The notes under the pieces were generated by a model. That model ran no database searches. It saw only the letters and a program-made list of their open reading frames with translations, and had not been told where the DNA came from. The position numbers and the translations under genes are program-made. A DNA stretch of 64,000 nucleotides, taken from assembly GCF_004322775.1 (NCBI RefSeq), contig NZ_CP036403.1:3472001-3536000 (forward strand), read 5' to 3'. Positions 8,459 to 23,439 of this stretch are shown one piece after another. The stretch comes from Ornithinimicrobium sufpigmenti. Its GTDB lineage: Bacteria; Actinomycetota; Actinomycetes; Actinomycetales; Dermatophilaceae. Every line of letters starts with the position of its first letter. Positions within the stretch are counted from its first letter, which is position 1.

Positions 8459-9357
8459 ACGACACCGACCGTCTCATCGACCGGCTGCGGGACCTGCCGC
8501 CCGACCTGCCCGATCCGCTCGACCGGTTCGAGGTCATCGGTGAGCGGGTGCGCCGGCGCAGGCGTCGCCATACGGCCGTGGCGATGGGTGGCACGCTCGC
8601 GGTCGCGGCGCTGGCCCTCGCCGTGCCCCTGGGCGCCCAGCTGCTGCCGCAGTCAGCCCAGGTCGGACCCGGCGGCGGTGCCGACCAGAGCACCACCGGG
8701 CCAGTCACCAACGACGCGGACCTGCTGCCCGGCAGGACCCGTGTCACCCACCTCAGCGAGCCCATCACCCGGACCGAGACCGGCACCGCCACCGTGGAGC
8801 TGGGCAGCAGGCCCCAAGGCGCCACCGGGGTGGGGCTGGTGATCGACTGCCTGAGCGCCGGAGAGTTCACCTACCCCGACGGCGCCGGCATGATCTGCGA
8901 CACCGGGGCCGAGCCCAGCGACCTGGAGGACTTCCCGTCTATGGCCTACGTCGTTGACCTGGCCGCGGGGATGGATGAGGTGGAGATCAGGGCGACCGAG
9001 GGCGCTACCTGGCGGCTCACCGCGGCCTATGTGAGCACTGAGGTCACGCAGTGGGGCGTCAACGCCAAGGGCCAGACCTTCGGGGTGGAGAACGCAAACG
9101 GTTCCCCTGACCTCGTCGCGGTCGTGGCCACCAACGGGCAGCTGGGCTACGCGTATGTCTCCGACATGAACGCCGCAGGCGGTCCAGCACCCACCTCCCC
9201 CGAGGATGCCCTGATCCAACAGCAGGAACGTCTCGGCAAGACGCTCAGCGTCAACGTCTACGAATCCGACGGCGAGACCGTGATCGGCGAGTTCGTGATC
9301 GGCAGCAGCCGCCCAACCGATGGTGACGACACCGCCACCGTCACCTGGATCCCCTGA
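8455..9357 (+). CDS. Membrane-anchored protein, likely sigma-factor partner
   Basis: A 300-residue protein. It begins with a short cytoplasmic part (residues 1-40) ending in an RRRRRR run, then one transmembrane helix (about 43-63), then an extracytoplasmic domain rich in Asp, Thr and Gly with no recognised family. Start GTG 8455 overlaps the sigma-factor stop, the usual layout of an ECF sigma factor and its cognate membrane regulator. There is no clear zinc anti-sigma HxxxCxxC motif, so the anti-sigma role rests on context alone. Confidence 0.7.
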   Translation: MNDTDRLIDRLRDLPPDLPDPLDRFEVIGERVRRRRRRHTAVAMGGTLAVAALALAVPLGAQLLPQSAQVGPGGGADQSTTGPVTNDADLLPGRTRVTHLSEPITRTETGTATVELGSRPQGATGVGLVIDCLSAGEFTYPDGAGMICDTGAEPSDLEDFPSMAYVVDLAAGMDEVEIRATEGATWRLTAAYVSTEVTQWGVNAKGQTFGVENANGSPDLVAVVATNGQLGYAYVSDMNAAGGPAPTSPEDALIQQQERLGKTLSVNVYESDGETVIGEFVIGSSRPTDGDDTATVTWIP

Positions 9358-9493
9358 AAGCGACAGACGCCAGACCATCCTGTACGATGCCGCAGATCGC
9401 TCGGACCTTGGAATCGTGATCGCGGAGCAGTCGACCGCCCCCTTTCACCGGGACGTCACGGGACGGCTCCTCGGCCCGCGGGGCTAGGACAGT

Positions 9494-9739
9494 TCAGGCG
9501 GTATCGAGATAGTTCGAGAGCGCTTCGCGGACGACGGCGTCGGGCGACTGCCCATCTTTAGCGGCTCGCTCGTCGATGGCGTCCAGCAGGTCCTCGGGAA
9601 CCAGCTGAACCCGGTGGAAGTGCGGATTCAGCTCGGACGTGCGGGCCGTCAGTTCGTAGCCGGCCTCCGCCTCCTCGACCAGGTCGGTGACCTGCGCATC
9701 CGTGAGGCCAGGCACGCTATCAGTGATCTCGTAGCTCAT
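9494..9739 (-). CDS. Antitoxin-like ribbon-helix-helix protein
   Basis: An 81-residue acidic protein whose C-terminal half (VPEDLLDAIDERAAKDGQSP followed by DAVVREALSNYL) looks like a ribbon-helix-helix DNA-binding segment of CopG/BrnA-type antitoxins. The start ATG 9739 overlaps the toxin stop (ATGA) and AAAGGAGG lies upstream. In toxin-first pairs such as BrnT-BrnA, the second gene neutralises the toxin and represses the operon; this role is inferred. A decayed second copy lies at 11895-12134. Confidence 0.72.
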   Translation of the reverse strand: MSYEITDSVPGLTDAQVTDLVEEAEAGYELTARTSELNPHFHRVQLVPEDLLDAIDERAAKDGQSPDAVVREALSNYLDTA

Positions 9740-9978
9740 GCGCGCCCTCCTTTCGGGTAGTACCGCTTGCGCAACTTCATCGCGTGGATGACAACCTCCG
9801 CACCATCATCCCCCGCGACCGTGACGATCTCCAGTGGTCTGGCCGCTGCGTCCACACCCACATAGAGCCACCTGTCCGGGTCTTCACCGACCTGTGTGCG
9901 TTGCCACGCCGTGGCGACGGCGTGCGCGATGTCCGACGGCGTGCATCCGTGCTTCAACGCCGAACGGAGGATCCTCAC
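9736..9978 (-). CDS. BrnT-like toxin
   Basis: An 80-residue protein read from GTG 9978 (RILRSALKHGCTPSDIAHAV at the start). It contains GEDPDRWLYVGVD and LEIVTV, and ends VIHAMKLRKRYYP, the pattern of small BrnT-like toxins that act as RNases in related systems. The frame is open upstream to 10068, so the start is uncertain; GTG 9978 matches the family length best. Its stop overlaps the antitoxin start, so the pair is a two-gene operon with the toxin first. Confidence 0.7.
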   Translation of the reverse strand: MRILRSALKHGCTPSDIAHAVATAWQRTQVGEDPDRWLYVGVDAAARPLEIVTVAGDDGAEVVIHAMKLRKRYYPKGGRA

Positions 9979-10663: not shown

Positions 10664-10984
10664 TCACGGCTCCCCCAGCAACGGCACGTCGAGGTCGTAC
10701 GCCAGCACGATGGCTCTTGCCAGGTGGCGCTCCTGCTCGGGCGTGAGGAAGCCCAGCGTCCGGCCCAGGAGGTCGGCGGGGATGGTCAGGACGTTGTCGA
10801 TCGAGACAGCACTGTTGTGGTCCAGCCCGTTGGCACGTCCTACCGGCACTTCGCTGGACAGCCCCTTGACCGTCGACGTGATGGGAGCCACGGTCACCTT
10901 GGTCATCACGGCGCGGGCAGTGTCGCGGGTGAGCACCAGGACGGGGCGGGTCTTGTCCAGCCGCGCCAGGCAGATCTCGCGCAA
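10664..10984 (-). CDS. mazF: MazF/PemK-family endoribonuclease toxin
   Basis: About 106 residues. The sequence LDKTRPVLVLTRD, then VTVAPITSTVKGLSSEVPVG and LDHNSAVSIDNVLTIP is characteristic of MazF-type toxins, which cut mRNA at short motifs. The probable start is TTG 10984, just after the antitoxin stop; another TTG at 11020 would add 12 residues overlapping the antitoxin. It is the second gene of a mazEF pair inside the accessory region. Confidence 0.88.
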   Translation of the reverse strand: MREICLARLDKTRPVLVLTRDTARAVMTKVTVAPITSTVKGLSSEVPVGRANGLDHNSAVSIDNVLTIPADLLGRTLGFLTPEQERHLARAIVLAYDLDVPLLGEP

Positions 10985-10986
10985 GG

Positions 10987-11220
10987 TCAGTCGTCCAGTG
11001 TCGCGTGGGCTACGGACCAAGTGACGAGCTCGTCGAGGTCATCGGCCGTGCCCTTCTTCTTCAGGGTCTGGGCGTCCTGCTGAGCGGCTTGCAGGCGCAT
11101 CTCACGCTCTAGGGCCGCGGCCACCAGCGCCGCTCGGCTGGGAGCCTTGCCACTGGCCACGCTCCGGTCCAGAAAGCGAACCATCTCATCAGGGAGCCGT
11201 ACCGCGATCTGTGTCGTCAC
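10987..11220 (-). CDS. mazE: MazE-like antitoxin (ribbon-helix-helix)
   Basis: A 77-residue protein starting GTG 11220: TTQIAVRLPDEMVRFLDRSV, then PSRAALVAAALEREMRLQ, a ribbon-helix-helix DNA-binding domain, and an acidic C-terminal tail (DDLDELVTWS) that would bind the toxin. It directly precedes the mazF gene and likely autoregulates the pair. The open frame extends upstream to 11319 but the family begins at the RHH strand, supporting GTG 11220. Confidence 0.85.
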   Translation of the reverse strand: MTTQIAVRLPDEMVRFLDRSVASGKAPSRAALVAAALEREMRLQAAQQDAQTLKKKGTADDLDELVTWSVAHATLDD

Positions 11221-11264
11221 CCCATCAGCATACCATCTAGCATCCCACAACGGGATGCACGACT

Positions 11265-11684
11265 TTGTCGCGGGCGCGCGAGCATATCGCGCCCCCCGCC
11301 ACCGCTTACCTTGCGGCATACCCGCCCGGTGTTGGAGCCACCAACTTGAGCGATGCCCAGCGAGAGGTGGACGATACCGTCGCCGAAGAGTTCGGGTCGC
11401 TTCCGCATGACCTCACCCGGGTCGCCACCCTCCAGGGTCGGCCCGTGGGGGCGATCCTGGTGGTCGACAAGTCGATATGGGATCCAGAGCTGGATGGGCC
11501 CTTCATCATCGACCTCTTCGTCCATCCCGACGCACAAGGGATGGGCGTCGGTCAAGCCCTGCTCGACGAAGCGGTCCACGCCTGCGCCGCGGCCGGGGAC
11601 CCCACCCTTTCACTGCGCTTCGGCGACGGTACCTCGCCTGCAGCCCACGCCCTCTACACCCGAGCAGGGTTCGAGCAGCGCTGA
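11265..11684 (+). CDS. GNAT acetyltransferase, short or 5'-truncated
   Basis: A 139-residue frame with a clear GNAT core: IIDLFVHPDAQGMGVGQALL is the acetyl-CoA binding loop (Q/RxxGxG/A as QGMGVG), and it ends HALYTRAGFEQR. The N-terminal strand and helix usual in GNAT proteins are weak, the TTG start at 11265 lacks a ribosome site, and the mazE promoter lies immediately to the left. It may start internally, or have lost its 5' end when the surrounding element rearranged. Substrate unknown. Confidence 0.6.
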   Translation: MSRAREHIAPPATAYLAAYPPGVGATNLSDAQREVDDTVAEEFGSLPHDLTRVATLQGRPVGAILVVDKSIWDPELDGPFIIDLFVHPDAQGMGVGQALLDEAVHACAAAGDPTLSLRFGDGTSPAAHALYTRAGFEQR

Positions 11685-11715
11685 CAGCGACGCCCCTGCT
11701 CTGCGCGGGCTCGGT

Positions 11716-16879: not shown

Positions 16880-18145
16880 GTGAGGAGAGGGGGCACGGTG
16901 GTCAGTGCCGCGATGCGCGAGAGCGACAAGGAGATCCAGGGCTACCGCCTGCTCGACCGCCCCAGCGGCGCAGAGCTGCAGTCGCTGAGCGATCTCGCGG
17001 CCGGCATGTTCGGCGTGCCCTTTGCCGCGATCAACATCCTCACCAGCACCCACGAGTACCAGATCGCCACCACCGGCTTCGCCGGCGCGGTTCTGCCGCG
17101 ACAGGAGTCGATGTGCGCAACTCTTCCCCCCGACGCCGGTGCGGTGGTCGTCGCAGACGCCAGCGCTGACCCGCGCTTCGCCGACAGAGGGGTCATCCGG
17201 AGCGGCCCAGGGGTGCGGTTCTACGCCTCCGCACCCCTGCTCACGCCCACGGGAGTGCCGCTGGGGTGGTTGTGCGTCTTCGACGTCGAGCCCGGGGAGG
17301 CCACCGAGAAGCAGCGCGAGCTGCTCACCTTCGCGGCCGCGCGGGTCACCGACGTGCTGGAGCTGCGTCTGCGCAGCGTGCAGCTGGAGGACTCCCTCTT
17401 GGAGCTGACCCAGGTGCGCGACGAGCTGGCCCGCTCCAACGAGGCGTTGTGGCACTTCGCCAGCCAGGTCAGCCACGACCTGCGCAACCCCCTGATGGGC
17501 GTGCGCGCCAACGCCGAGCTGTTGGCTGGAGAGCCGGCCATCCTCGCGGACCCCGAGCTGTCAGACATCGTCGGGCACATCACCGAGTCCGCGAGGGGGA
17601 TGAGCCGGATGATCCAGGAGGTGCTGGCTCACGCCAAGGAGGGCGGTGCGCGGCCACGCCGCGACTGGGTGGACCTGGGCGAGGTCACCGATCGGGCGCT
17701 GCTCGACCTCAGCCCCTTCATCCGGGAGACGGAGGCCAAGGTGCGGGTCGATGATCTCCCCCGTGTCCCCGGTGACGGTGAGCTGCTCTACTCCGTCTTC
17801 TCCAACGTGCTGACCAACAGCCTGAAGTTCACCCGCGACGGGGTGACCCCCGAGGTGCAGGTCACGGCTACCCAGCAGGGATCTGTCTGGCGGATCTGCG
17901 TGATGGACAACGGCATCGGCGTGCCGGCAGGGCAGGAGAGGTCGATCTTCCTGCCCTATGTGCGCGCCCGCAACAGCGCCGACGCGCCCGCCCGCGCCGG
18001 CTACGGCATCGGCCTGGCCACCGTCCACCGGATCATCACCGCGCACGAAGGCCGGGTCGGTATGGAGCCACGCCAGGAGGGCGGGACCACCGTCTGGTTC
18101 GAGCTGCCCGCGCGCATGCCGGAGGAGAACGCGGCTGCCTCCTGA
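16880..18145 (+). CDS. GAF-domain sensor histidine kinase
   Basis: A 421-residue kinase without membrane segments. A GAF domain lies at about 30-170, followed by a short coiled coil, the dimerisation/phosphoacceptor helix QVSHDLRNPLMG, and a full ATPase domain with the N box SNVLTNSLKF, the DNGIGVPAG box and GYGIGLATVHRI. All residues needed for kinase activity are present. GTG 16880 is chosen for GAGGAGG six bases before it; frames extend upstream. No response regulator is next to it, so it is probably an orphan cytoplasmic sensor. Confidence 0.9.
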   Translation: MRRGGTVVSAAMRESDKEIQGYRLLDRPSGAELQSLSDLAAGMFGVPFAAINILTSTHEYQIATTGFAGAVLPRQESMCATLPPDAGAVVVADASADPRFADRGVIRSGPGVRFYASAPLLTPTGVPLGWLCVFDVEPGEATEKQRELLTFAAARVTDVLELRLRSVQLEDSLLELTQVRDELARSNEALWHFASQVSHDLRNPLMGVRANAELLAGEPAILADPELSDIVGHITESARGMSRMIQEVLAHAKEGGARPRRDWVDLGEVTDRALLDLSPFIRETEAKVRVDDLPRVPGDGELLYSVFSNVLTNSLKFTRDGVTPEVQVTATQQGSVWRICVMDNGIGVPAGQERSIFLPYVRARNSADAPARAGYGIGLATVHRIITAHEGRVGMEPRQEGGTTVWFELPARMPEENAAAS

Positions 18146-18170
18146 CGCCGCGCTTGGGTTACCGGTCAGT

Positions 18171-18188
18171 GTTACTACTGAGTAGAAC
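18171..18188. promoter_or_regulatory. Small inverted repeat upstream of the surface-protein locus
   Basis: GTTACTACTGAGTAGAAC contains CTACT-G-AGTAG flanked by GTT and AAC, a near palindrome about 120 bp before the camelysin-like gene. It could be an operator for the neighbouring response regulator. A possible -35 GGAAC lies at 18236-18240. Both are weak signals. Confidence 0.3.
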
Positions 18189-18306
18189 TGACGAGTAACT
18201 GAGGAGCTGGGGTGGATCTTCTGTTGGAGAACCGTGGAACTACCGGGCGTAGTGTTTGAAACATCAACGGTTCCGCCGTGAGGCACCCCCACCACCAGGA
18301 GTCAGC

Positions 18307-18834
18307 ATGACCAGCACCACCTCCCGCTCGAAGAAGGTTCTTGCCCCCCTCGCCGTCCTGCTCGCGGCCGGCGCGCTGGCCGTCGGTTCGGGTGCGACCT
18401 TCACCTCCGCGTCGAGCAACACCATCGGCTCGGTCACCTCGGGCACGCTGAAGCAGACCAACAGCAAGGACGGCCAGGCCCTCCTCAGCGCGACGGACCT
18501 GAAGCCGGGCAAGGACGTGTCGGGGACCGTGACCCTGACCAACAACGGCACCCTGCCGGCCATCTTCAACCTCACCGCCACGAGCGCCGACAGCACCTTC
18601 CCCCAGAATGACCTGAAGCTGAAGGTCGTCAACGAGGCCAACAGCCAGACCATCTACGACGGCGACTTCAAGGGCATCAAGGACGGGCCGGCCCGCAAGA
18701 TCGGCGACTTCGCCGTCGGCCACTCCGCCACCTTGAAGTTCACCGTGAGCCTGGACAAGGACGCCGGCAACGACGCCCAGGGCAAGACCGCCAACGCGGC
18801 CATCACCTGGGATGCCATCCAGACCGACCACTGA
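18307..18834 (+). CDS. SipW-dependent secreted protein, camelysin/TasA-like
   Basis: A 175-residue secreted protein. The N-terminus (about 1-40) has a hydrophobic segment followed by GATFTSASSNTIGSV, the signature of substrates cut by SipW-type signal peptidases. The mature part resembles the beta-rich TasA/CalY group (GTVTLTNNGTLPAIFNLT), whose members form extracellular fibres or are surface metalloproteases in Bacillus. A matching peptidase gene follows. ATG 18307 follows an ACCAGGAG ribosome site. Mature function (fibre, matrix) is inferred. Confidence 0.82.
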   Translation: MTSTTSRSKKVLAPLAVLLAAGALAVGSGATFTSASSNTIGSVTSGTLKQTNSKDGQALLSATDLKPGKDVSGTVTLTNNGTLPAIFNLTATSADSTFPQNDLKLKVVNEANSQTIYDGDFKGIKDGPARKIGDFAVGHSATLKFTVSLDKDAGNDAQGKTANAAITWDAIQTDH

Positions 18835-18870
18835 CCTATCCCCCAAGGTCATTCCTGAAGGTCCCGTGAC

Positions 18871-18934
18871 CCACCCGGTCCGGTGGCAGGTGCCGCTGCC
18901 GGACCGGGTGGCCAGTCGAGTCGACTGGCCACCC
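18871..18934 (+). promoter_or_regulatory. Two overlapping, mutually exclusive hairpins
   Basis: Hairpin 1 pairs CCACCCGGTCCGG (18871-18883) with CCGGACCGGGTGG (18899-18911). Hairpin 2 pairs GGGTGGCCAGTCGA (18906-18919) with TCGACTGGCCACCC (18921-18934). They share 18906-18911, so only one can form at a time. They lie between the abundant substrate gene and the peptidase gene. Neither has a strong U tract, so an RNA-stability or attenuation role is possible, not proven. Confidence 0.75.
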
Positions 18935-19011
18935 GCACCACCAGGCACCACACCCCCTGAGCAACACCCTGAGAATCCCCGAAGCCCCTGAATTCCGGAA
19001 GGATGACCCCG

Positions 19012-19593
19012 ATGCAGCGGATGAAGCACTGGGCCCGACGCCTCCTCAGCATGGCCGGCAACCTGGGTCTGGTCGCACTCGTCCTCGCCTGCGCCGCATA
19101 CCTTCTGCCCCACGCGCTCGGCTTCGAGCGCTACGTCATCACCGGGGGCTCGATGTCCGGCTCGATCGAGAAGGGCTCGGTCGTGTTCGCCGAGCCCCGC
19201 CCCGTGGAGGACCTCGCGGTCGGTGACGTGATCACCTACCTGCCTCCCGCGGACAGCGGCGTCAGCAACCTGGTCACCCACCGCATCGTCGAGATCACCA
19301 CCGACGAGGCCAGCGAGCTGGTCTTCCTGACCCAGGGCGACGCGAACCCCGACGTCGACCCGTGGACGTTCAGCCTCGTCGACGCCGAGCAGCCGGTCGT
19401 GACCCAGTCCGTGCCGTACGTCGGCTATCTGCTCATCGCCCTGGCCGACCGCGGGGTCCGGATGATCATCATCGGCATCCCCGCGGCCATCATCGCCCTG
19501 CTCGCCCTCGTCGAGCTCGGCCGCAACCTCACCGGTATGTGGCGCGAGCACGAGTCGTCCGACAGCTCCCGTCACGCGGCCACCAGCCGCTGA
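19012..19593 (+). CDS. SipW-like signal peptidase I
   Basis: A 193-residue membrane protease of the archaeal/ER type. A first transmembrane helix (about 15-35) precedes the catalytic serine motif ITGGSMSG (Ser47), then VGDVITYLPP and THRIVEI with the catalytic His, and a second helix near 145-170. This S-H dyad type cleaves alternative signal peptides like those of its neighbours. ATG 19003 is also in frame, but GGAAGG touches it; ATG 19012 has normal spacing. Confidence 0.88.
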   Translation: MQRMKHWARRLLSMAGNLGLVALVLACAAYLLPHALGFERYVITGGSMSGSIEKGSVVFAEPRPVEDLAVGDVITYLPPADSGVSNLVTHRIVEITTDEASELVFLTQGDANPDVDPWTFSLVDAEQPVVTQSVPYVGYLLIALADRGVRMIIIGIPAAIIALLALVELGRNLTGMWREHESSDSSRHAATSR

Positions 19594-19643
19594 CCTCTCA
19601 GTCTCACCCAGCATCGCCAGCAGCACCGACCAAGGAGTATGAC

Positions 19644-21125
19644 GTGACCGACCGGCGTTCCCTCAAGGTCATCGTCTTCGGTGCGCTGGCGATGCTGCTC
19701 GCGTTCACCATGCCCGGCTTCTCCACCGCGACGTTCACCTCGAGCAGCTCCAACACAGCGACCGTCAGCGCCGCCGCCGACTGGGTGGCTCCGAAGGTGT
19801 CTATCGTGGACCTGCCCGCGCAGGCCTCCGGCACCCAGGCCCTGAGGGCCCAGGCCTCCGACGAGTTCGGCACGGGTGTGGCGAGCGTGACGATCGAGAC
19901 CCGGCAGACCGGGGGCACGTGGGCGGCCCTCTGCACGGACACCTCCGCGCCGTACGAGTGCGTCTGGAACACCACCAGCCTGAGCAGTGGGAACTACGAG
20001 GTCCGGGCCCGGGCCACCGACCGCGCCGGTCTCATTGGCACCTCAGAGACCGTGGCCACGAGCGTCGCGAACGGCAGGCTCGTGCTCGACCACCCGGGCC
20101 AGCCCGTCTCCGGCAGCCCCACGTTGACCGCGAGGATGTCCGGCTGGGTCCTGCACACCCTCCGCATCGACTACCGCGAGTCCGGCGGTCGTTGGCAGCC
20201 CCTGTGCGCTGGCGTCACCCGAGAACTCAGCTGCCCCTGGGACACCACACAGCTGAAGGACGGCCAGTACGACCTGCGCGCCAGGGCGATCTGGATTGTC
20301 CCGACCGATGAGCACATCATCTACGACGTCACCGTCGACAACGCCGGCGTCCTCCGCCCCCGCGCGGCCAACATCGGTCCGGAGGCAACCGACCCCGCCG
20401 CCGACTCGGTGGACAAGGGCCAGGTCGGGCCGGACGTCCGGAGGGTCTCGCCCGTCGAGCGCCGACCTGTGGACCCGCCGGTCGAGGACGAGCCGAACGA
20501 TGAGGCTGTCGTCGAGCCTGCCCCGGAGGAGCCGCCGATGCTCCCCGGTGACGACAACGACCAGACCGTCCCGGGCGACGATGAGGACGAGACCATCCCC
20601 GGCGACGAAGAGGACATCGAGGAGCCCGAGCTGCGCGGCGTCGGCCTGACCGCCATCAACGGCGGCACAGCCGGAAGCCTGGACGAGGGTGACGCCTTCG
20701 CGTTCACCTACTCCGGCGCGGTCGACCTCGGCACCGTCCTGCCCGGGTGGTCCGGTGAGGCGACCCCGGTGTCGGTGCGGCTGCGGGACGGCGCCCTGCT
20801 CGGTGCCAGTGCCCAGGACGACACCTTCGACGTCCGCTCCGGCGACCTGCCCGTCGAGGTCGGCCAGGTGCACCTCGGCGCTGACGTCATCGACGTGGAG
20901 CAGCAGATCCTCCTGCCCGCCACGATGACGGCGCAGACGGTCACCGTCGACGGGGCCATCCAGACCACGGTCACCGTGACCCTGGCAGCAGTGAACGACG
21001 AGGACGAGGTCATGCAACCGGCCCCCGCCGCGGTCCTGACCTGGACCCCGTCGGCCGTCGTCACCAGCCTGACCGGCCGCGCCTGTGTGGCCGATCCCGT
21101 CACCCAGACCGAAGGAAGCTTCTGA
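19644..21125 (+). CDS. SipW-dependent surface protein with Ig-like and acidic regions
   Basis: A 493-residue protein. Its signal region carries TATFTSSSSNTATVSA, nearly the same motif as the camelysin-like neighbour, so it is a likely second substrate of the adjacent peptidase. Two repeats about 75 residues long follow (each ends with a Cys-containing segment, YECVWNTT and LSCPWDTT), resembling Ig-like bacterial surface domains. A highly acidic Pro/Asp/Glu linker (about 255-330) leads to a C-terminal beta-rich domain. GTG 19644 follows AAGGAG. No transmembrane anchor is seen; it may bind the fibre. Confidence 0.72.
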   Translation: MTDRRSLKVIVFGALAMLLAFTMPGFSTATFTSSSSNTATVSAAADWVAPKVSIVDLPAQASGTQALRAQASDEFGTGVASVTIETRQTGGTWAALCTDTSAPYECVWNTTSLSSGNYEVRARATDRAGLIGTSETVATSVANGRLVLDHPGQPVSGSPTLTARMSGWVLHTLRIDYRESGGRWQPLCAGVTRELSCPWDTTQLKDGQYDLRARAIWIVPTDEHIIYDVTVDNAGVLRPRAANIGPEATDPAADSVDKGQVGPDVRRVSPVERRPVDPPVEDEPNDEAVVEPAPEEPPMLPGDDNDQTVPGDDEDETIPGDEEDIEEPELRGVGLTAINGGTAGSLDEGDAFAFTYSGAVDLGTVLPGWSGEATPVSVRLRDGALLGASAQDDTFDVRSGDLPVEVGQVHLGADVIDVEQQILLPATMTAQTVTVDGAIQTTVTVTLAAVNDEDEVMQPAPAAVLTWTPSAVVTSLTGRACVADPVTQTEGSF

Positions 21126-21514
21126 TGCGCCGGATCCTGGCCCGCCCTCTCTGGGCAGCGGTCATCGTCACCGCCGTCCTGGGCGGCCTCCTGATCGCCT
21201 ATGCCCTGGACAGCACGTTGACCCCTTACTCCTTGATGAGCGGGTCCGCCGGCGTCGCAGCCGGCCTGGCGGCCATCGTGATGGCCGTCCGGGACCCCTT
21301 CCCGGCGCGACTGGCTGCAGTCCTGCTCTGCGTGACCGGCGCCCTCGCCGCGGTGCTCGCGATGACCGTGGGTGTGCCGGGAGACCTCGCGACCGGGGTC
21401 ACCCTGCGGGGCCTGGCTCTGGTGGCCTGCGGCCTTCTGGTCCCGATGCTGCTGGCGGTCCACGTCACGTCCGGCTCGAGCCGCATCCACGAATCAGGCC
21501 CGTATGCTCGCTGA
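21125..21514 (+). CDS. Small integral membrane protein
   Basis: A 129-residue protein with four predicted membrane helices (about 8-28, 38-55, 62-80, 90-115). No family motif is recognised. Its ATG overlaps the stop of the surface protein upstream and it ends just before the response-regulator gene, so it belongs to the same locus. Confidence 0.7.
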   Translation: MRRILARPLWAAVIVTAVLGGLLIAYALDSTLTPYSLMSGSAGVAAGLAAIVMAVRDPFPARLAAVLLCVTGALAAVLAMTVGVPGDLATGVTLRGLALVACGLLVPMLLAVHVTSGSSRIHESGPYAR

Positions 21515-21515
21515 C

Positions 21516-22226
21516 ATGCCCACCATCGTGGTCGTCGAGGACGATGACAAGATCGCCGCCCCGCTGGTCCGCACCCTGGAGCGAGACGGTTACACCGTCG
21601 TGCGCTTCGCCGAGGGCCTCCCCGCGATAGAGCGGGTGACCAAGCACGACGACGTGGCGCTGCTCATGCTGGACCTCGGTCTGCCGGACATCGACGGCAT
21701 CGACGTGTGCCGCGCCGTCCGTGACGGTGGCTTCGCCGGTGGCATCATCATCCTCACCGCCCGGGACGGGGAGCTGGACCGCGTGGTCGGTCTGGACCAG
21801 GGCGCGGACGACTACCTGGCCAAGCCGTTCGGTCTCGCCGAGCTCCAGGCGCGCACCCGGGCACTGCTGCGTCGTGCTGAGTATCACGACAAGGCGGTGA
21901 CGCCCGGCGCGGCACCCGCGGCCAGGCGCGACAGCAGCTTCGTCGTGGACCAGGACGCCCGTCGCGTCTGGGTCGGGGAGCAGGAGCTGCCGGCCACCCC
22001 GAAGGAGTTCGACGTCCTGGCCCTGCTGGACTCCCGACGCGGGACCGTGCTGACCCGGGACACCCTCATCCACGAGGTGTGGGACGAGAACTGGTTCGGC
22101 TCCACCAAGACCCTTGACACCACCGTGGGGCGCCTACGGCAGAAGCTGGAGGAGGCCGACGCCCCCGTCCAGATCACCACGGTCCGCGGGGTGGGGTTCC
22201 GCCTCGAGGACGTGGAGGATGCGTAA
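21516..22226 (+). CDS. OmpR/PhoB-family response regulator
   Basis: A 236-residue regulator. The receiver has the acidic pocket EDDD (8-11), the phosphorylation site Asp53 (LMLDLGLPD) and Lys in LAKPF. The C-terminal winged helix carries PATPKEFDVLALL and TLDTTVGRLRQKL. TATGCT with a seven-base spacer stands before ATG 21516, so it can be transcribed leaderless from its own promoter within the locus. It pairs with the kinase that follows and probably controls this surface-protein locus. Confidence 0.92.
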   Translation: MPTIVVVEDDDKIAAPLVRTLERDGYTVVRFAEGLPAIERVTKHDDVALLMLDLGLPDIDGIDVCRAVRDGGFAGGIIILTARDGELDRVVGLDQGADDYLAKPFGLAELQARTRALLRRAEYHDKAVTPGAAPAARRDSSFVVDQDARRVWVGEQELPATPKEFDVLALLDSRRGTVLTRDTLIHEVWDENWFGSTKTLDTTVGRLRQKLEEADAPVQITTVRGVGFRLEDVEDA

Positions 22227-23439
22227 CCGGCTGGTCGCCGTCCTCGTCTCACTGGTCGTCGGGATCGTCGCTCTCTACGGCGTCCCGCGGGCCTACCTGC
22301 TGGCCGACCTCGTCGAGGACGGTGAGCGGCAGGAGACCCACCACGCCGCCGACATCGCCGCCATCGCCCTTTCCGAGAGGGTGCGTGTCGGCGAGGAGGT
22401 CACCTCCGACTTCCTCGCGCTCTTCCTGCGGGAGCAGGAGAGCCTGAGCGTCACCGCGCCCGACGGCAGCATCGTCCGGGTGGGCCTTCCGACCGAGACA
22501 GACTCCCCCGAGGACATCGTCGCCACCCGGCCTCTCACCGGTGGGGGCGAGCTCACCGTGCGCCGGTCCGCGGACCTCGTCGACCAGCGGGTCGGTGACG
22601 CCCTGATGCCTCTCGTCCTCATCGGCCTGGCGCTGGTGATCCTGGTGCCGCTGCTCATGCTGGGCCTGGCGGAACGGCTCTCGCGCCCCTTCCGCGAGCT
22701 GGCCGGCGTCGCTGAGCGCATCGGGCAGGGACACTTCGACGAGCCCATCCGGCACCACCGGGTGGCCGAGGCGGAGGCGATCGCCGACGCCCTGCGCCGG
22801 GCGTCAGCCCGGTGGGCCGAGCTGATGCGGCGCGAGCGCGACATCGCCGCCAACGCCTCCCACGAGCTGCGCACGCCGATCAGCGCGCTGCGGGTGGAGA
22901 TCGAGGACCTGGCCTCCTGGCCCCAGACCCCGCCCGACGTCGCCGCCGAGCTGCACAGCTACCTCCCCCAGCTCGACCGGCTCAACGCGGCGGTGCGCGC
23001 CTATCTGGACCACGTCCAGTCCCAGCGACTGACGGACGTCGACACGGTCGACCTCGTCCCGGTCGTGCTGGGGGCGATGCAGAGGTGGGAGGCACCCCCC
23101 GACGGGGACCGCCCCGGCCTGCCATCCGTCCTGGTCGAGGAACCAGAGGGCGCGATGCCGGTGCGCGCGTCGCAGGCCACGGTCGGCCAGATCCTCGACC
23201 ATCTCTTCCGGGACGCGCGCGACCGCGGGACGACGCTGGTCCGCGTCGAGCTGGGGTGCACCGACGCCTTCGGCCGGGTCCGGCTGAGCCTCGAGGGAGA
23301 GGTGACCCCTGCGGGCGAGGAGGCCCGCACCGCGGCGTCCCGGATGGCCCTCGAGGTGGACGGGCGGGTGTCCATCGTCGACGGGCACAGCACCCTGCTC
23401 CTCCCCCGCGCCTCCGGCTCGGAGCCGGCCCGCCCCTGA
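22219..23439 (+). CDS. Membrane histidine kinase with degenerate ATPase domain
   Basis: A 406-residue sensor kinase overlapping the regulator by eight bases. It has a transmembrane helix at about 3-22, an extracytoplasmic sensor, a second helix (about 130-155), a HAMP segment, and a canonical phosphoacceptor helix NASHELRTPISALRVEIEDL. The C-terminal domain should bind ATP but no N box Asn, DxGxG or GxGxG motif can be found; the region reads QILDHLFRDARDRGTT and ends DGRVSIVDGHSTLLL. Kinase activity is therefore uncertain. Confidence 0.88.
   Translation: MRNRLVAVLVSLVVGIVALYGVPRAYLLADLVEDGERQETHHAADIAAIALSERVRVGEEVTSDFLALFLREQESLSVTAPDGSIVRVGLPTETDSPEDIVATRPLTGGGELTVRRSADLVDQRVGDALMPLVLIGLALVILVPLLMLGLAERLSRPFRELAGVAERIGQGHFDEPIRHHRVAEAEAIADALRRASARWAELMRRERDIAANASHELRTPISALRVEIEDLASWPQTPPDVAAELHSYLPQLDRLNAAVRAYLDHVQSQRLTDVDTVDLVPVVLGAMQRWEAPPDGDRPGLPSVLVEEPEGAMPVRASQATVGQILDHLFRDARDRGTTLVRVELGCTDAFGRVRLSLEGEVTPAGEEARTAASRMALEVDGRVSIVDGHSTLLLPRASGSEPARP

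Follow-up and report, generated by a model that had tools for sequence, protein, structure and literature searches.

In Bacillus subtilis, the tapA-sipW-tasA operon encodes a dedicated Ser-His signal peptidase and two substrates that share an N-terminal segment, one of them a subunit of the TasA fold; the N-terminal segment of TasA is reported to become a donor strand, and the N-terminus of TapA to resemble that of TasA (PMC9674648). The TasA-CalY-CapP system of Bacillus cereus likewise has matrix filament proteins that are processed by SipW, together with an accessory starter (PMC13082335). Among the papers listed in searches of open-licence literature for actinobacterial TasA/SipW systems were reviews and Bacillus work, none describing one. 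Here we analyze a locus of this general kind in Ornithinimicrobium sufpigmenti, located in a 64,000-nucleotide stretch (hereafter, the window; positions 3,472,001 to 3,536,000 of contig NZ_CP036403.1) of a 4.17-Mb, one-contig genome. Our best reading, to which we assign a probability of roughly 55%, is that this is a locus for a TasA-type extracellular fibre controlled by a split sensor.

An original prediction, made from the sequence of the window, had placed here, from position 18171 onwards, two exported proteins with look-alike signal segments, a SipW-like peptidase between them, a small protein, a response regulator and a kinase. All six genes are present at or near the positions given for them, consecutively on the + strand (18307-23439), with a single tasA-like gene in the genome. 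The predicted start was too narrow: a soluble GAF domain histidine kinase (hereafter, GAF-kinase) immediately upstream belongs to the locus as well, because it is kept beside the operon in several relatives. The features, in order, are:

16913-18145, + strand: soluble GAF domain histidine kinase (HATPase_c 75 bits, HisKA 44 bits), adjoining the operon in relatives
18212-18216, 18224-18228 and 18234-18238, + strand: putative regulator boxes GTGGA, TTGGA and GTGGA, recognized by sequence, the outer pair 22 bp apart
18250-18256, + strand: TAGTGTT, a probable -10 element, 15 nt after the last TGGA
18307-18834, + strand: TasA/camelysin-type fibre subunit, 175 amino acids including the signal segment (TasA profile match, fold, relatives)
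19003-19593, + strand: ER/archaeal-type Ser-His signal peptidase (TIGR02228 and SEC11A profile matches; conserved Ser, His and Asp)
19644-21125, + strand: second exported protein, GTG start (the Ig protein: shared motif, Big_7/Ig-like domains, acidic linker, C-terminal domain)
21125-21514, + strand: small, weakly conserved hydrophobic protein (open reading frame, with hidden Markov model matches in part of the loci)
21516-22226, + strand: OmpR-type response regulator (Response_reg and Trans_reg_C)
22219-23439, + strand: membrane sensor histidine kinase (HK) with HAMP, HisKA (SHELRTP) and a degenerate ATPase region (no HATPase_c match; boxes absent)

The product of the first operon gene resembles the solved TasA both in profile comparison and in fold, the best structural match being TasA in its fibre form, followed by a donor-strand archaeal pilus and then by Fim pilins (near 7.4). 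It scored below the cut-offs of the Pfam family PF12389 (20.2 versus 22.5 bits), which is precomputed for most of its listed relatives, and of the NCBIfam equivalog for biofilm matrix TasA, NF046066 (12.7 versus 450 bits); an M73 search of the genome gave no match, although the gene is TasA-like. The closest named relative, from Ornithinimicrobium pratense, is 72% identical, and 13 among 120 relatives listed are already named "TasA family protein". The fibre-type subunit, peptidase and substrates of the original prediction stand; its remark that this is not a textbook system has to be softened. The two exported proteins could instead be a soluble or wall-bound pair that shares a common beta fold and does not polymerize, given that fold alone shows no function and that the Pfam family is named after a metallo-endopeptidase; the order of the structural matches and the donor-like N-terminus kept in both substrates make this distinctly improbable. 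Extra tasA copies occur in locus L070 (7298-7840 and 14577-15119, the second behind the GAF-kinase), and L260 (G637) contains three in a row. In L112-L114, L117 and L120-L126, mainly from Thermoleophilia and related metagenome-assembled genomes, TasA-like genes, often several, lie beside a peptidase of the same type, with no regulator or membrane HK match over threshold save for a weak - strand regulator match in L126.

The peptidase exceeds the TIGR02228 cut-off for ER/archaeal-type signal peptidase I (72.4 versus 51.85 bits), matches the profile of human SEC11A (E=3.6e-5) and retains the Ser, His and Asp residues in 66 of 67 copies, but does not reach the threshold of the Bacillus SipW equivalog NF046067 (60.6 versus 190 bits). 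Judging from these comparisons, it would work like SipW but is no SipW equivalog. As had been noticed, the two proteins encoded on either side of it carry a common motif directly after the hydrophobic segment, ATFTSASSNT in the TasA-like protein and ATFTSSSSNT in the Ig protein. A loose version (a small residue, then one of any kind, then an aromatic one, soon after the hydrophobic segment), which may also catch a triplet other than the cleavage site, was found in 126 of 130 substrate copies (71/73 TasA-like, 55/57 Ig protein). A stricter version is present in 123 of the 130. Among 170 further signal-peptide-like open reading frames of the same loci, it occurs in 30, some of which appear SipW-linked and some of which are membrane proteins; an aromatic residue at P2' after the first AxA occurs in 18 of the 170. 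The shared motif exceeds chance, and its absence from SipW-linked proteins of relatives, named beforehand as grounds for doubt, was not observed: the motif is conserved there. If the cut is assumed to fall at A|TF, the aromatic residue occupies P2', a feature that is reported to hinder LepB and to occur in SipW-processed TasA (PMC10269814). The other stated doubt, processing by a general signal peptidase, was not confirmed as far as sequence can show; such an enzyme is also encoded in the genome (135 bits), so that the SipW-like one is a candidate for the processing of both substrates.

The structure prediction proposed for 19644-21125 yielded Ig-like domains, in agreement with the Big_7 match and with the predicted Ig-like second substrate, and a disordered stretch at residues 209-288; searches aimed at the C-terminal domain covered mainly the Ig domains. 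The protein has 493 amino acids here and mostly ~600 in relatives; Ornithinimicrobium and Serinicoccus have shorter ones. A scan of named genomes with it as the query found no relative; relatives were recovered by peptidase alignment, the best 80 of 111 being retained. The shared motif suggests both a cleavage site and a donor strand. Most likely, the subunit and the Ig protein would be exported via Sec and cut by the Ser-His peptidase just ahead of the aromatic residue, after which the freed N-terminal segment of each subunit would complete the next one as a donor strand. By analogy with what has been proposed for TapA, the Ig protein, which apparently lacks a TasA fold itself, might fill one fibre end with its N-terminus and so start, cap or anchor the fibre.

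Boxes repeated head to tail every 11 bp are typical of OmpR/PhoB-type regulators. Across 55 tasA upstream regions, there are 112 occurrences of GTGGA versus 18.5 expected, and pairs spaced by 11, 22 and 33 bp occur 24, 12 and 16 times, each seen at most once in any of 200 shuffles; 29 regions have a -10-like match, and in 19 of the 55 a TGGA lies exactly 15 nt before it. These repeats are the predicted sites of the OmpR-type regulator of the operon, which would turn on tasA through them. The regulator is encoded in the operon, in line with the predicted private control, and its phospho-Asp is conserved in 52 of 53 loci, the remaining one showing a gap. The exact box plus -10 pattern occurs at two places in the genome, one being the tasA promoter; at the other (L199), the open reading frames show no link. 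With up to one mismatch, there are 27 places versus 128 for the reversed control, so that the genome is not enriched in the pattern, and a Sigma-70 scan gave no match. Between the GAF-kinase and the boxes lies an imperfect inverted repeat (CAGTGTTACT ... AGTAACTG, window 18168-18202).

The claim that the system has its own kinase was not borne out. The membrane HK matched HAMP and HisKA, with no HATPase_c match at E-value limits of 1 or 0.001, and lacks the ATPase boxes. Among 53 loci, a set that excludes those without regulator, signal peptidase or TasA over threshold as well as second copies from one genome, the boxes are complete in 0 of 20 with an in-locus GAF-kinase and in 27 of 33 without one (Fisher 1.1e-9, a value that ignores descent). 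The 20 comprise 14 with a degenerate HK, two with an HK cut off directly after the DHp domain (Knoellia locipacati and K. flava) and four without HK; the relatives thus show the membrane HK complete, degenerate, cut off or lost. The GAF-kinase is complete (HisKA and ATPase) in 19 of 19. Three more in-locus cases (G681, G778, G638) all have an incomplete HK. Six of the loci without an in-locus GAF-kinase do not have complete boxes, namely, L075 (partial), L090, L095, L097, L103 and L106; a search of 58 of 59 whole genomes located a GAF-kinase elsewhere for L090, L103 and the divergent L128.

The box rule was adjusted after the data had been seen. A first pattern gave false G2 matches (L072, L103), and an over-strict one found complete boxes in 19 of 28 loci whose genome has no GAF-kinase and in 0 of 23 whose genome has one; the adopted, position-limited boxes gave 24/28 and 1/23. 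L071 and L078, for which there was no genome search, are outside these in-genome counts and inside the in-locus ones. Two checks were made. Pfam HATPase_c agreed with the box counts (3 of 19 HKs with and 25 of 27 without a GAF-kinase in the genome), and in 22 further Nocardioides genomes, 17 of them with an HK, the HK is incomplete in 5 of the 6 that have a GAF-kinase above 400 bits and in 0 of the 11 that do not (Fisher 0.001, or 0.005 if L261, counted as complete although its N-box does not fit the strict pattern, is taken as incomplete; strictly, 10/11 are complete). Of the rest, L258 and L262 have a regulator and no HK, and L273-L275 have neither. Among Nocardioides loci without a membrane HK, L262 (G652) shows a partial GAF-kinase match, in L106 the regulator is followed by no more than a short DHp-like protein (8952-9743), and L119, one of the four HK-less loci above, carries only a GAF-kinase truncated after DHp (10755-11693).

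The residue following the phospho-His divides the sensors in a similar manner. Every complete HK (27 of 27) has Q there, and every incomplete HK from a genome with a GAF-kinase (18 of 18; L070 and L084 assigned by eye) has an acid, E or D; of the three other incomplete HKs, L095 has E, L097 has A and L075 has Q. In the further Nocardioides genomes, it is Q in 12 of 12 complete HKs, and E in four and V in one of five incomplete ones. In the HisKA proteins tested, this acid is needed for kinase and not for phosphatase activity, and an E-to-Q change in CrdS is reported to have abolished kinase activity (PMC3510030). Because the acid is retained despite the loss of the ATPase, the sensor His seems to be phosphorylated by something else, and the GAF-kinase is, most likely, the donor, since no ATP-binding domain is left in the membrane protein; the sensor would then relay or remove the phosphate. 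The complete HKs (e.g. L083, 11610-12947) carry HQ rather than the usual HE or HD and, by the CrdS rule, would be poor kinases.

Alternatively, the GAF-kinase might use its own His to phosphorylate the regulator directly, with the sensor acting only as a phosphatase or being a vanishing leftover. The Serinicoccus-type loci L064, L143 and L147, with GAF-kinase and regulator and no HK, are compatible with such a replacement, as are the conserved phosphatase residue (T or S) of the sensors, an ATPase remnant that evolves freely in one pair (ratio of non-synonymous to synonymous substitutions, dN/dS, 0.93) and genomes G136, G158 and G159, which kept adjoining GAF-kinase and regulator genes after losing the fibre genes. 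We consider replacement rather unlikely because the acid that tested proteins can spare for phosphatase activity is kept in 18 of 18 sensors and because the DHp domain is constrained: its dN/dS is 0.04-0.40 in seven pairs, compared with 0.18-0.93 for the pseudo-ATPase in five (0.26 between the window and its nearest relative) and 0.31-0.34 in two complete pairs. In those three genomes, of the same genus (L295, L296, L297), the two genes lie side by side, and the intervening stretch in L295 contains GTGGA boxes at spacings of 22 and 11 bp as well as an apparent peptidase tail.

Several observations weigh against our reading of the locus. While the membrane sensor is a phospho-His protein without an ATPase, as in a strictly defined split kinase, the GAF-kinase has its own phospho-His (SHDL in 19/19). 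L095, L097 and L127 have an incomplete HK and no GAF-kinase found in the whole-genome search, L106 matches neither, and L073 and G608 combine a complete HK with a GAF-kinase elsewhere. GAF-kinases above about 400 bits are present in 90 of 215 Nocardioides genomes and 27 of 186 genomes of the own family, seven of these belonging to a single genus, with a TasA match in one; because of this wide spread, genome-wide presence is weak evidence, and the proposal that an elsewhere-encoded GAF-kinase explains the exceptions (Terrabacter, Intrasporangium) is weakened. The promoter pattern is weak or largely absent in Microbacterium-type loci. Corrected for descent, the association is not significant (four independent pairs on supported branches, 1.6 agreeing, 0 opposing, the rest equal; these are too few for the pair test, which can reach 0.05 only with six or more independent changes), the HK tree, which covers 46 of the 53 rows, unites 17 incomplete HKs in one clade (support 93/92), and the association rests on few independent evolutionary events.

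The single HK clade, the spread of GAF-kinases without the operon and the non-significant pair test would all fit hitch-hiking, in which one HK lineage lost its ATPase early and, by chance, near a common GAF-kinase with another job. We regard this as quite unlikely since the pairing holds with the GAF-kinase at different sites, ahead of tasA or after the HK; incomplete HKs are scattered over several clades of the tree of regulator, peptidase and TasA (the boxes and the in-locus GAF-kinase each change 6 times); and the distances of GAF-kinase and HK remain correlated once those of the peptidase are taken into account (partial r 0.65, 13 loci). The simplest account is that two kinase modules were swapped between operons, HQ with an ATPase versus HE without one plus a GAF-kinase. 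The split sensor might be a new design, which we put forward tentatively, at somewhat less than even odds: a complete soluble GAF-kinase lends its ATPase to an ATPase-less membrane HisKA protein with a matching change beside the His (Q in the complete HKs, E/D here), so that inside and outside signals must meet before the fibre is built.

Three proteins gave no match in PHROGs, and an oddity of one genome can be rejected because many relatives carry the locus. If our reading is correct, actinobacteria would gain a fibre resembling that of TasA, equipped with a dedicated regulator and a promoter code that can be read. The ATPase-less sensors and the complete relatives that can serve as their controls, which occur together even in Knoellia, form a natural series suited to testing how one kinase takes over the catalytic half of another.

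Compared with known systems, the archaeal bundling pilus of Pyrobaculum and the Sulfolobus thread differ in being archaeal, the sequence link being AbpX alone (E=0.057). In HK1-HK2-TcrA of Mycobacterium tuberculosis, kinase functions are reportedly spread over two proteins, and the system is not known to include fibre genes; a table in PMC8965865 lists the names. The CheA3/CheA4 split kinase of Rhodobacter sphaeroides is similar in that an ATPase-less phospho-His protein is served by the ATPase of another protein (PMC3591291), whereas the donor proposed here is itself complete, phospho-His included, and the proteins are of the HisKA and OmpR type, not CheA. Searches on split or degenerate kinases yielded little that was useful. 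In contrast to tapA-sipW-tasA, the Ig protein replaces TapA, the operon includes a regulator and a sensor, the subunit is smaller and the gene order differs; for TasA-CalY-CapP, the available text describes no motif-bearing Ig-like partner or linked kinase (PMC13082335). The fibre genes thus represent a variation on a known type of system, and what is new is the way in which the sensor is arranged.
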